From contig NZ_SETE01000006.1 in the NCBI RefSeq assembly GCF_004152935.1, forward strand, positions 186,001 through 250,000: 64,000 bases of DNA. The letters are read 5' to 3'. Numbering within the stretch: position 1 is the stretch's first letter; the number at the start of each line of letters is the position of its first letter. This stretch comes from Brumimicrobium glaciale (GTDB lineage Bacteria; Bacteroidota; Bacteroidia; Flavobacteriales_D; Crocinitomicaceae). The position numbers and the translations under genes were made by a program. The notes beneath the pieces are model-generated. The model was not told where the DNA came from and searched no databases. It saw only the letters and a program-made list of their open reading frames with translations. This document shows positions 9,971-29,060 of the stretch, piece by piece.

Positions 9971-10820
9971 TCTAAAAATATCCACCTTTTTAATCTGCGT
10001 TACATTGAGCGGTGTAGAATTATCATTTTTTGCCAGATCTTTTTGGTATTAAAACTAAATTAGTATTTATTGATTCAAATTTTCACTTGAAATAGTAGTT
10101 AGAACTATAAACAAGGGCTCTATATGAAATACTGTGGGTAATCAATTTTAATCCTTTAAAAAATTAATAGTGCTAGTACGAATTTAACTGTAACCTACAC
10201 GAGTTGTATTTTAAAGTATTTTTCCAAATCATCATTTTATTTTTACTGGAAAGTATATGGATATCTTTAATTCAGTTGGTTAGTCCCGTCGGGACGACAT
10301 ATTAACAGCCAAGGACGTAAGTCCTTGGTTTAAAACAAATAGATATAAAACAAAACCCAACAAAATCGGCCTAATTGCATGCAATTAGGCCGATTTTGTT
10401 GGGTTTTGTTTCGGTTTGTATCGTTTGGCGGATGGACTTACGTCCATCCCTATTAATATGCCGTCCCTCTGGGACTTATAACGATAAGTAATTAATTAAC
10501 AGGGGGTTATAAAATTAAGTGAAAAGTATTTTAATAGAAAGTTTCCATCTAAATAAAAGTAGAACCAAATTAACAATCGTTTAGCTTCAATTAAAACCAT
10601 AGATTTTAAATCTACCCACACAAAATCATATAGAACTATAAACTTGTTAGCACCAATTCTCTAAATCAGCTATTTTTATTTTTTTTCGATTCTCATTCGA
10701 TTTATAAGTGTCTTAAAATAGCAATTAATCAATTTTCTCCTTTTCTTAGTAGACTTTATTAGCAGCATCCAAAAGTGATTGCTTTGGTATTTTAATGTCG
10801 TATAAAATAAAACGATTTTG
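9971..10820. other. Gene-free stretch filled by a foldback element
   Basis: Most of this 850-base gap is the palindromic mobile element at 10117-10637. The flanks (9971-10116 and 10638-10820) are AT-rich, and I see no gene or clear promoter in them. Confidence 0.7.
10117..10637. mobile_element. Foldback (MITE-like) palindromic element, copy A
   Basis: About 521 bp with no coding potential. The ends form an imperfect inverted repeat of about 20 bases: CTATATGA-N5-TGTGGGTA at 10120-10140, matched in reverse complement at 10613-10633. Inside are two REP-like double hairpins facing each other: GTCCC/GGGAC (10283-10295) with CCAAGGAC/GTCCTTGG (10309-10328), and GGATGGAC/GTCCATCC (10430-10449) with GTCCC/GGGAC (10463-10475). 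They surround a 64-bp perfect palindrome (10348-10411). The flanks ATAAACAAG (10107-10115) and ATAAACTTG (10638-10646) look like a decayed target duplication. A homologous copy sits at 28306-28817. With no transposase of its own it would be non-autonomous. Confidence 0.72.
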
Positions 10821-18903: not shown

Positions 18904-19347
18904 CTACTCACTACTGACTTTATGTAATTCTAATAGTTGAATGAATTCACTTTTATCAGGTGCTGTGAGATTCCTAATATCTTGGTCTCTGATGAAATTG
19001 AAAACTTCCTCAATGTTTGTTGAATTAACTGAAAGACAACTGAAGTCTTCCTCCCAAATAGCCTGTGCTTGTGTTTCTAATTTCGCGTTAATAAAGTCAG
19101 CACTTACTTTTTGAATTTGGTTTACAATTTCCTGAACTGATTTCTCAGGATTGAGATTGAATAAACAATTCAAATGGGTTGATGAACAATTAATGATTCT
19201 AACAGAAGAACCCATCTTTATGAAAGTATCTTCAACAATCTGATTTACTTCTTCTCTAAAATAAGGCTGAATAACTGGGTTTTCATCTTTGGCAGTTATC
19301 AAACAATGTATCCATGCATGACAGTGAACTTGGTCTTCGAAATCCAT
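18904..19347 (-). CDS. RAYT-like Y1 transposase-family protein with degraded active site
   Basis: This 147-residue protein follows the REP-associated/IS200 Y1 transposase layout: CHAWIHCLITAKDENPVI corresponds to the family's IWIHLVWSTKNR block, then INCSSTHLNCLFNL, VQEIVNQIQKVSADFIN, IWEEDFSCLSVN and VFNFIRDQDI. The family's HUH metal motif DHVH reads THLN here (H58 kept, second His replaced by N60). The catalytic Tyr of the YIxxQ helix is Phe (F118, with Q122 kept). Both changes should abolish DNA cleavage, yet the frame is intact. It could be a domesticated DNA-binding protein or an early-stage relic. The family assignment is by motif recognition, not by search. Confidence 0.68.
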   Translation of the reverse strand: MDFEDQVHCHAWIHCLITAKDENPVIQPYFREEVNQIVEDTFIKMGSSVRIINCSSTHLNCLFNLNPEKSVQEIVNQIQKVSADFINAKLETQAQAIWEEDFSCLSVNSTNIEEVFNFIRDQDIRNLTAPDKSEFIQLLELHKVSSE

Positions 19348-20092
19348 AATATTTTGATTTTAAGGGTTAGTGATGACTAAGTTATGGTTTTTTATCCAAA
19401 TTCAAAAGGGAAGGGTTAATTTAATTTTGGTGTGCTCAATCCTCGCATCAGGTTATTGTGTTCTGTTTTTAAGATAATGATGACAAAAACTAAACGTAAT
19501 ATTATTTGGTTCTACCACGAATTTAGTGGAATATCGCATGCCATTGAGAATAAAGCTTAAAGACTTTTCTAGTAATTTACTTTTTTAAAATCCTCGATTA
19601 TCACAAAACTCCACAGGTGAAAAAATCCGAGATCATCTACTTCGACTTCACTCTGCACAAGCGCGTTGCTTGCAGTTCTTTCGCGGTGACTGAGCATGCG
19701 CTGCATTGAGCTTGTCGAAATGTCGAAGGCCCGCGTTCTATTACAGCGCAACCAAAAAGATCAACCAAAGCTCTTGGGTTTTTCATTTTGCATAAAGCTT
19801 GTTATTTCAATAAACCATTAAAATCAGGGTAGAACCAGTTTAATAAATGATTTTGCGATTTAAAGGGGTAGCCCTATTATTCTATTAATTGAACAATGTC
19901 AGATGGTTTTGACAGGAGAAATACTATATCAAGCAATGCGTCCTGTCAGGAGAGCTCTTTTTAATAGTATCAAATAGAAGCCTAAAAATCAGTAGACCAA
20001 AATAAATTAACCCAAGCTGAATTTAAAACCCATTAGTATTCTAAAGAAAATTGTAATTGATTTCGTCCTCAATACTCCTTACTCAAAACGCT
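19348..20092. other. Gene-free stretch with repeat debris
   Basis: No convincing gene is present. 19639-19728 contains inverted CTTCGAC/GTCGAAG words and the phrase AGCTTGTCGAA (19709-19719), whose complement TTCGACAAGCT recurs at 24401-24411 and 28904-28914. The open frame 19569-19751 on the minus strand lies across this repeat and is not credible. The rest is AT-rich with no clear signal. Confidence 0.6.
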
Positions 20093-26649: not shown

Positions 26650-28194
26650 ATGAAAAATATCATTGCTTTCTTAACAATACTTACCATTTTTAGTTCTTAT
26701 GGACAGACAGTTAGTTTAGACTCCAGTTATGTAATAAATGGAATTAATAAATTAGAAATTGCCGCAGGGTCTGATGACCAAAGTCTTTTATCTGCAATTC
26801 AACCTGATAATAAAGTTTTGATATGTGGTGCTACTTATAGTCAATCACTAAATAATACTTATCCGTTTGTGAGTAGATATTTGCCAAATGGTGATTTGGA
26901 TTCAGCTTTTAATTCAACAGGAATAAACATAGTAAGTTCATTAGCAACTTGCTTTCCTTATTCAATGGTTTTACAAGACGATGGAAAAATTGTTTTAGCG
27001 GGTCAATATTATTCTCAAGGAAATGTAAGAGGAATTGTTATTCGGTTTAATGAAAATGGTAGTTTAGATTCAACTTTTAACCAAACTGGTTATAATGATA
27101 TTTCTTATTCTTCAAAGGATTATTATGGTAGAACAGTCACTATTCAAGGTGATAAAATTATTTTAGCCGGTTATATTCATAAGAGTAATACAAATTATGA
27201 TTTTTTTGCCGCACGATTTTTATCCAACGGAATTATTGATAGCACTTTTGGAATAAATGGTGTGGTAGAAAAGGATTTTGGTGGAGTAGATGTATGCAGA
27301 GGAGTTACCGTACAGCCTGATAATAAAATTATTTTAACGGGATATGAAGAAAATTCTTTCTCCCCTAATATTATACGTTTATTAGAAAATGGAAGCGAAG
27401 ATGTTCCTTTTAGTAATGAACTCGCTTTAAATACGCAGTATATATATGCTATGCCTTATCAGAGCTTAGTTCAAGAAGATTCGAAAATAATCAATGTAGG
27501 TTTTTCTTTTGACACGTTAACCGGCAAGATAAATACTTATGCTACAAGACTACTTCCAACAGGTGAAAAAGACGCTTCTTTTGGGGTTAATGGGGAATTT
27601 ATGATTAATATTTCAGGTGAGGATACGTATGGGATATATAGTGCTTTCTATGGAGATAATAAGTTAGTTATTGTTGGAAACTCTGGCGATGCGGCTACAA
27701 ATAAAATGAAATTGTTTGCTATAGGTTTAAATAGTGATGGGTCTATAGATTCTGCATTTATGAATAATGGAATTTATACGGATTTAATAAGTACTGATTA
27801 CGAACTTCTAAATGCAGTGCATTCAAACGATAATGGTAAAATAATTGCCACAGGTTATTATGATGAAGGTGGTAATTGGAATAAACCTGTTATTGTTCAA
27901 TTTAAAGTAAATGAATTAGCTGGTAATGTGATAGAAGATTTTAAAAATGATATCCGAATTTCATTAGGACCAAATCCGTTAGGAGACGAATACTTGAATA
28001 TTGTCAATAATAGCGAGCATAAATTGACTTACACTATTTATAACGCTATGGGAGAAACAATAATGGAGGCCAATGAAATTGATAAGCAAACCAATAGAGA
28101 GATTAGGCTAGATTTAAGTAAAGGGATTTATTTCGTTAAGTTTTATTCATCAGAAAAAAAAGTATCTAAAACGATTAGTCTTATTAAGCAATAA
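26650..28194 (+). CDS. Delta-60 repeat protein with T9SS type A sorting domain
   Basis: A 514-residue secreted protein. A signal peptide (residues 1-18, ending SSYGQ) is followed by about seven beta-propeller-like delta-60 repeats. Each has the course IQPDNKVLICG…RYLPNGDLDSAFNSTGI (for example VLQDDGKIVLAGQYY, VQPDNKIILTGYE). The last 75 residues form a T9SS type A sorting domain (ISLGPNPLGDEYLNIV, then YNAMGE, then KGIYFVKFYS and the basic end SKTISLIKQ). T9SS would carry it across the outer membrane and anchor it to the surface. Its ligand is unknown. Confidence 0.9.
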   Translation: MKNIIAFLTILTIFSSYGQTVSLDSSYVINGINKLEIAAGSDDQSLLSAIQPDNKVLICGATYSQSLNNTYPFVSRYLPNGDLDSAFNSTGINIVSSLATCFPYSMVLQDDGKIVLAGQYYSQGNVRGIVIRFNENGSLDSTFNQTGYNDISYSSKDYYGRTVTIQGDKIILAGYIHKSNTNYDFFAARFLSNGIIDSTFGINGVVEKDFGGVDVCRGVTVQPDNKIILTGYEENSFSPNIIRLLENGSEDVPFSNELALNTQYIYAMPYQSLVQEDSKIINVGFSFDTLTGKINTYATRLLPTGEKDASFGVNGEFMINISGEDTYGIYSAFYGDNKLVIVGNSGDAATNKMKLFAIGLNSDGSIDSAFMNNGIYTDLISTDYELLNAVHSNDNGKIIATGYYDEGGNWNKPVIVQFKVNELAGNVIEDFKNDIRISLGPNPLGDEYLNIVNNSEHKLTYTIYNAMGETIMEANEIDKQTNREIRLDLSKGIYFVKFYSSEKKVSKTISLIKQ

Positions 28195-29060
28195 AAACCT
28201 TGCATTGGTTAGGAAAATGATTCGCGAATTTTCGGATTTTTATAGAGTGGTATATATTGCTTTATTCCAGATGAATATCGAGGTTTAACATGAAAAACTT
28301 ACTTGGCTCCATATGAAATACTTAGGGTAATCAATTTTAATCCTTCGAAAAATTAATAGTTCTACTACGAATTTAACTGTAACCTGCACGAGTTGTATTT
28401 TAAAGTATTTATCAAAATAATTATTTACTTTTTACAAGTAAGCATATGGTGGTCTGTATTTCAATTGGTTAGTCCAGGCGGGACGGCATATTAATAGCCA
28501 AGGACGTTAGTCCTTGGTTTAAAACAAATAGATATAATACAAAATCGACCTAATTGCATGCAATTAGGTCGATTTTGTTGGGTTTTGTTTCGGTTTGTAT
28601 CGTTTGGCGGATGGACTTACGTCCATCCCTATTAATATGCCGTCCCTCTGGGAATTATAATGATAAATACTTAAGCAACAGGTGTTTATAAAATTAAGCG
28701 AATTAGATTTTTAATAGAAAGTATCCATTTAAATAAAAGTAGAACTAAATAAACAATCGTTTATCTTCAATTAAAACCATAGATTTTAAAACTACTCACA
28801 CAAAATCATATAGAACCACTTACTTGTAATTCGCTTTTAATTATAGAAAGTTCGGATAGCTTATAATCATAAAACTCTTTTTTCTCTACTTCGTCAGGTT
28901 CACTTCGACAAGCTCTGCAAAAGTGTGTAAATAATACACCGAATGCTATCTTAAAAAACTATTGAATACCTAAGTAGTTTTCTACTCTAATTTTGATCTT
29001 CTAATTAGGGCATCATAAAATTTATACTTCTTACATTTGGGGAATAATTTAAAATCTTTA
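28195..29060. other. Gene-free stretch filled by the second foldback element
   Basis: It contains foldback element copy B (28306-28817). The downstream part has the repeat word TTCGACAAGCT at 28904-28914 and a TACATTTG box at 29032-29039 that could serve the EI24-like gene, although no -33 element is seen. Confidence 0.65.
28306..28817. mobile_element. Foldback (MITE-like) palindromic element, copy B
   Basis: About 512 bp, homologous along its whole length to 10117-10637 with scattered substitutions and small indels. The central palindrome is 38 bp perfect here (28540-28577), because the left arm has lost bases that copy A keeps. The hairpin CCAAGGAC/GTCCTTGG and its mirrored partner GGATGGAC/GTCCATCC are intact. 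The two outer GTCCC/GGGAC stems are partly eroded. The element is flanked by identical ACTTACTTG at 28297-28305 and 28818-28826, which looks like a 9-bp target-site duplication. Confidence 0.75.

Follow-up and report, generated by a model that had tools for sequence, protein, structure and literature searches.

The window, a 64,000-nucleotide stretch of the Brumimicrobium glaciale genome, carries two homologous non-coding elements. Copy A (10116..10637, + strand, 522 bp) lies beside a gene encoding an MgtE protein, whose nearest named relatives come from Brumimicrobium, and copy B (28305..28817, + strand) is 513 bp long. The initial annotation saw no gene in them, and neither copy overlaps an ORF of at least 50 aa. 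That annotation described a two-copy element; the homology and the non-coding character held up, but the genome contains 22 full-length copies and many partial ones. It had also placed the copies at 10117-10637 and 28306-28817. Both right-hand ends are correct. Both starts were set one base too far in because the element begins with GG, and the true first bases are 10116 and 28305.

Copy A ends in imperfect terminal inverted repeats (TIRs). The left repeat (10116..10140, +) was defined by arm pairing with its first base set by the flanks, and the right repeat (10613..10637, -) by arm pairing and flank comparison. The paired arms are 22 nt long and 82% complementary (10119-10140 with 10613-10634), and those of copy B are 13 nt long and 85% complementary. 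Inside copy A, a left REP-like double hairpin (10282..10328, -) matches the Rfam family RF01687, Acido-Lenti-1, at 45 bits, above the gathering score of 37 bits. A right, inverted one (10430..10476, +) reaches 31.5 bits, below the gathering score. The central perfect palindrome (10348..10411) has 32-nt arms and the centre TAATTGCATGCAATTA. In copy B the left REP-like unit is at 28471..28517 (-; RF01687 33.8 bits, below the gathering score) and the central palindrome at 28539..28578, with 20-nt arms and a 10-bp deletion in the left arm. The right, inverted unit (28609..28653, +) was placed by similarity to copy A and is not among the RF01687 matches listed. By arm pairing, both copies have the two inward-facing double hairpins and the central palindrome first described for them, and the palindrome arms are 100% complementary in each. 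The folding energy of copy A has a z of -9.7, and 0 of 100 shuffles folded equally well.

Copy B is flanked by an 8-bp target site duplication, ACTTACTT, at 28297..28304 and 28818..28825 (both +), as determined by flank comparison. The identical 9-mers reported earlier included a ninth G on the left, which is the first base of the element itself. The reported 7/9 match around copy A drops to 2/8 with the corrected ends. Across flank lengths of 6 to 11 bp copy A showed no clean fit, and a clean 8-bp duplication is absent. A 13-bp direct repeat, TAGAACTATAAAC (left member 10100..10112, +; partner 10631-10643), overlaps the right end, which makes this junction ambiguous.

We searched the 4.27-Mb genome (12 contigs) with copy A as query. 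The search returned 83 matching stretches, which include 22 full-length places (copy A among them) that are 86-100% identical to copy A, and more than 12 shorter or rearranged copies. The full-length copies are 91-96% identical to their own consensus, and the ends of this family, TIR-A, are GGCTCTATATGA...TCATATAGAACC. The initial annotation had let the mobility of the element depend on further copies with the same ends, and dozens were found. The target duplications are 8 bp long and AT-rich. The 8-bp flanks match at 8/8 positions in 13 of the 22 full-length copies and at 7/8 in five; the other four match at 4, 4, 4 and 2 positions, the last being copy A. When left and right flanks of different copies were paired as a control, 0 of 462 pairs matched at 8/8 and 6 of 462 at 7/8. 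A wider flank scan, which excluded copy A, found both ends in 29 of 32 sources, with 15 perfect duplications, seven at 7/8 and seven lower. Duplications were poor in L031, L033, L035 and L036 (4-6 of 8) and in L015, L017 and L028 (4/8), although the flanks of L028 match at 11/11 at another offset. Together with copy A, these loci indicate that some copies are old or recombined. Both ends are present in 28 of 31 loci scored for placement; mechanical ORF calling with a minimum of 90 aa put 0 of these 28 within an ORF. Their gene context is tandem in 15, divergent in eight and convergent in five, which does not support a terminator-like placement.

TIR-A copies fall into four subfamilies. The long form carries the full cassette of hairpins and palindrome. 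The coreless form is about 347 bp long (L037; L038, which has another insertion; and the truncated L039) and has AGTCC-n-AGTTGG-n-GGACT or a close variant in place of the cassette. The short form is about 262 bp long (L033, L035 and L036 here, L048 and L056 in B. oceani); it stops within the left palindrome arm and continues directly with the right end. L044 has another kind of inside. By eye, a third TIR element (GGGTTACCAAG...) lies at the same TIR-A site, about position 105, in L029, L034 and L038, and in L061 of B. oceani. It stands in opposite orientations in L029 and L034 and has a different inside in L038, so repeated targeting or in-place inversion at this position is likely on the sequence comparison.

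The coreless copy L037 lies in a region of near-duplicate segments, and the neighbouring duplicate holds its base-exact empty site. AAAATTCT occurs once at the empty site, between the same flanks with no element, and twice around the element in L037. L037 and L038 are coreless and have perfect duplications, which shows that the cassette is not needed for the outer element to move. Copy A as query matched 8 of 99 genomes, the own genome included, and the match was strong only in B. oceani (G002). There 166 bp separate the two genes that flank copy A, and the element is absent from between them; here the distance is 850 bp. Base-exact empty sites were not obtained in relatives, where the flanking genes can be aligned but not the DNA between them, and the comparison between species therefore holds at the level of genes. 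B. oceani has TIR-A copies of its own elsewhere, and those examined are short or partial. A 514-aa ORF (26650-28194 of the window) adjoins copy B, and both the ORF and copy B are missing from the syntenic stretch of B. oceani.

Copies A and B are a real and mobile non-autonomous element, a miniature inverted-repeat transposable element (MITE), most probably of the DDE type. They are short and lack a transposase gene. They have TIRs and a fixed 8-bp duplication (at least 7/8 in 18 of 22 copies), and the family is multi-copy with an empty site. The initial proposal, that MITE-like ends and REP-like innards together form a mobile element that is not autonomous, was borne out by dozens of copies, the 8-bp duplications and the empty site. 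By its own terms, finding the element at orthologous positions in relatives and no empty sites would have spoken against it, and the opposite was seen. Mobility of the element is seen base by base at one copy and as gene-level absence at the place of copy A in B. oceani.

The order of the cassette is REP-like unit, perfect palindrome, inverted REP-like unit. In having two REP-type hairpins in inverted orientation it resembles a REPIN/BIME. The palindrome centre TAATTGCATGCAATTA was found 28 times exactly, six times with one mismatch and never with two; the backward-read control gave two per strand. Of the exact occurrences, four lie in a second TIR family, TIR-C (GGTTCTACCACTATTTTAATGG ends), to which L045 also belongs. 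The cassette occurs in TIR-A, in TIR-C (L045, L121-L124) and, with no ends detected, in L041 and L043. When L040-L043 and L051 were scanned for TIRs, no pair of ends with an 8-bp duplication turned up. Only L041 and L043 were counted as end-less, because the left end of L042 is TIR-A-like and a TIR-B element adjoins L040. Among 14 cassettes compared, identity was 88-96% within TIR-A, 95-100% within TIR-C and 59-77% between groups. In another genome (G005) a TIR-A-like end lies beside a cassette whose palindrome arms are of largely different sequence and match each other at 27/28 positions.

The window also contains a TIR-C element (19508..19836, +), GGTTCTACC...GGTAGAACC, with a different inside and no duplication (3/8); the corresponding site in B. 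oceani is shorter by more than the element length. We examined 13 two-ended TIR-C elements, ten in loci from this genome, this one from the window and one each from G009 and G024. Eight have perfect 8-bp duplications, one matches at 7/8, and the others at 6, 5, 3 and 2 of 8. A ACTTCGACAAGCTC-like sequence near copy B (28890-28920) resembles one inside the TIR-C element (19630-19740) and is perhaps another dispersed repeat. Two contigs, C8 at its end (L130) and C7 at its start (L131), stop about 126 bp inside a TIR-C end. This suggests that the inner hairpins break assembly, and C8 and C7 may be neighbours.

We compared the palindrome arms in 34 palindromes, 33 from this genome and one from G005 (L124 was dropped as a repeat of L123). 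Only 15 of 966 arm pairs are mismatched, and across cassettes the arms diverge around the fixed centre. For the arm alignment we used 23 of the 25 TIR-A palindromes, leaving out L025 and copy B, which have left-arm deletions. Symmetric variants comprised seven types in 20 cells, 11 of these cells being one widespread variant. One-sided variants comprised nine types in ten cells, and all but one type were singletons. With identical rows counted once, two-sided changes occupied 17 cells. Shuffling gave a mean of 4.5 and reached 17 in 0 of 500 trials, although relatedness inflates counts of this kind. Sliding the arms by 1-3 columns left 0-1 cells.

Template switching between the arms of inverted repeats homogenises them, as described in part of the literature (PMC8604942), and we think it somewhat probable that these arms were homogenised in this way. 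The main competing possibility is that selection keeps the arms complementary, for a terminator, a protein site or an RNA hairpin, and that no templated correction takes place. The near-invariant centre and the divergence of the arms around it fit such selection. However, four of the seven symmetric types are transversions, which cannot pass through a G-U pair and would need a mispaired intermediate, and the one-sided variants are as expected of fresh, unrepaired mutations. Selection has a real chance of being the correct explanation, though we do not prefer it. On our reading, what keeps the arms matching is most likely template switching during replication and not selection on a transcript.

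There are nine Y1_Tnp loci in the genome. In one of them, L080, arrays of units with a hairpin and the motif CATATTAATAG border the Y1 gene on either side, and their hairpin-plus-TATTAATATG motif is similar to that of the REP-like units of the cassette. The L080 protein has HVH and YIKNQ motifs. From these motifs it reads as IS200-type and not as a RAYT with YIxNP. The other eight loci have no such arrays, apart from one lone weak match in L086 in a second scan, which omitted L083. RAYT subclass motifs, as outlined in PMC6006769, include YIHNNP for Bacteroidetes subclass 2.6; L085 has YIHNNP, and the surrounding stretch examined contains no REP-like motif. The window itself carries a small Y1_Tnp/IS200-like gene (18904-19347, -; NF033573 at 39.7 bits, below the cut-off of 55). 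Its HUH and tyrosine motifs look degraded by eye, yet B. oceani retains the gene in the corresponding position with 72% DNA identity, so it is possibly a domesticated transposase.

These loci bear on the idea that an HUH/Y1 single-strand transposase moves the whole element, which would then be a repeat of the REP/REPIN (BIME) type with incidental terminal repeats. The inverted REP-like units inside, the nine Y1_Tnp loci, the end-less cassettes and the L080 gene between arrays of a similar motif would all agree with it. Y1 transposition, however, makes no target duplication, and 8-bp duplications are the rule here, the coreless copies included. We consider movement of the whole element by this route very unlikely. 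HUH/Y1 movement may still apply to the cassette alone.

Another reading takes the element for a structured or regulatory RNA gene, Acido-Lenti-1, that was duplicated by chance. The match in copy A passes the gathering score, and when 150 of 335 first-look candidates in the genome were scored there were at least 43 matches, at least 21 of them above the gathering score. The match in copy A covers only 47 of 522 bp, though, and is part of the mobile cassette. Of the 43 matches listed, 36 lie in places found with the copy A query, and seven lie outside them (L114-L120). Placement relative to genes is unselective, and the arm changes include transversions that are barred from the G-U route. From this sequence evidence, an RNA gene appears highly improbable.

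Returning to the MITE, we looked for an autonomous parent. In the own genome, the left-end and right-end TIR-A patterns revealed no autonomous partner. Unpaired TIR-A ends were inspected and gave no parent; one of them, at C9:2830, is a left end that stands alone among ordinary genes. The TIR-C pattern in 40 genomes, the own genome included, gave no parent, and the pairs that could be matched lay less than 600 bp apart. There were 0 matches in viral contigs with two end patterns, in a plasmid collection with the coreless element as query and in a phage collection with copy A as query. A larger relative that encodes a transposase with the same ends, proposed at the outset as a check, was therefore not found in these searches. 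Autonomous partners are often missing for bacterial MITEs, according to the portion of PMC2229807 that deals with them, so the absence of a partner here is not disqualifying for this class.

One TIR-A copy, L032, has a 433-aa IS4-family transposase between its MITE arms, within the 8/8 duplication AAACTTTT. Nineteen loci are related to this transposase, and 13 relatives were scanned for ends together with L032. Six of the 13 have ends like CATACGCGTTAACTTAAG / CATACGCG; the other seven have no clear ends. L089, L093, L096 and L104 lie within 9-10-bp duplications CCC..GGG, L088 lies within CCTGTAAGG (8/9), and L092 has CCCGTAGGG on the left. In L032 the right IS end matches the ends of the relatives on the other strand and is followed by CCCTCTGGG, which forms stem and loop in the right REP-like unit. 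L032 lacks the left IS end and consensus positions about 248-349. The IS4-like transposase in L032 is thus a passenger that inserted into the inner hairpin. At E <= 1e-30 it is absent from the other 148 of 149 genomes examined, the own genome being included in the 149. That the MITE is instead a deletion derivative of this IS, with the IS as the autonomous parent, would suit the position of the transposase between MITE arms and the perfect duplication, but is scarcely credible when six of 13 relatives have their own ends of this kind and the right IS end in L032 is the same, and L032 was rejected as parent for this reason.

The IS4 subgroup, found mostly in Bacteroidota (L088, L089, L092, L093, L096, L104), often lies in hairpin-like CCC-N3-4-GGG targets; such sites would be expected if the IS inserts into REP-type hairpins. 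L032 has a 62-aa ORF (2260-2448, -) upstream of its transposase, which by eye resembles an AbrB-type DNA-binding protein. Similar letters lie upstream of the transposase in L088 and L094.

We regard as very probable an explanation in which a MITE carries an inner REPIN-like cassette. A DDE-type transposase acting in trans would recognise the GGYTCTATATGA ends and move the element into AT-rich intergenic DNA; this enzyme may be gone from the genome. Judging from the two end-less copies only, the cassette would once have spread alone, plausibly with an HUH/Y1 transposase of the L080 kind. It would then have entered the MITE and been copied along with it afterwards. Other elements are in turn drawn to the hairpins, one of which holds an IS4-like IS.

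A wider picture is tentative and rather doubtful. There may be a two-layer system in the genus, in which a REP-palindrome-REP cassette that spreads via single-stranded hairpin DNA was captured as cargo by at least two DDE end families, so that two transposition chemistries would meet in one sequence. The central palindrome would be actively homogenised, with new arms turning symmetric and a 16-bp centre fixed. In that case, cassettes of this kind may be the source of many Acido-Lenti-1 'RNAs' in Bacteroidota.

The findings connect mobile DNA with a 'candidate RNA' of Rfam whose function is little known. They also offer a natural experiment in which the persistence and change of long perfect palindromes in bacteria can be counted: 34 places share the centre and have divergent, matching arms. 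Small elements of a little-studied marine genus are seen in layered parasitism, an IS having entered a hairpin and a second MITE occupying one and the same internal site. Assemblies may be broken by such elements, as two contigs of this genome end inside a TIR-C relative.

The closest known system is QMITE2 of Coxiella burnetii, described in part of PMC5896051 as a MITE that has TIRs and direct repeats of 7-11 nt and contains a REP targeted by IS1111. Both are MITEs with TIRs and direct repeats that contain a REP struck by an IS, so a REP inside a MITE that is struck by an IS is not new. QMITE2, however, is 150-190 bp long and has a GTAG REP, whereas the element here has an inverted Acido-Lenti-1-type pair around a long perfect palindrome. 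In addition, a second TIR family shares the cassette here, and the IS that invaded a copy is IS4-like. For an inverted REP pair around a homogenised palindrome in two TIR families, we found no precedent in the accessible parts of open-licence PMC papers, including a MITE review (PMC10969869).

The cassette resembles REPINs/BIMEs, as outlined in PMC6006769, in that two inverted REP-like hairpins can form one large hairpin and are intergenic and multi-copy. It differs in the outer TIRs with target duplications and in the central palindrome of roughly 58-64 bp, and its cognate transposase is only suggested. The atypical REPs of Bacteroidetes TnpA-Y1 subclass 2.6, as sketched in the same source, share the phylum and the dispersed atypical secondary structures, but the sole YIHNNP Y1 locus here, L085, showed no REP-like motif in the stretch examined. 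BrickBuilt / MITE464 of Porphyromonas gingivalis are likewise Bacteroidota MITEs with similar terminal repeats and differing insides; as far as PMC4596501 describes them in part, their insides are tandem 23-nt repeats, their duplications are irregular and their ends are different. ISRm22, an IS4-family IS that inserts into REPs according to a portion of PMC1525189, is a precedent for the IS in L032, although from another host phylum. Acido-Lenti-1 RNA (RF01687) is a published candidate RNA of little-known function, as noted in parts of PMC2864571 and PMC13298647. The left hairpin pair of copy A reaches the gathering score of that family; here it has an inverted partner, and the two are carried within a mobile element.
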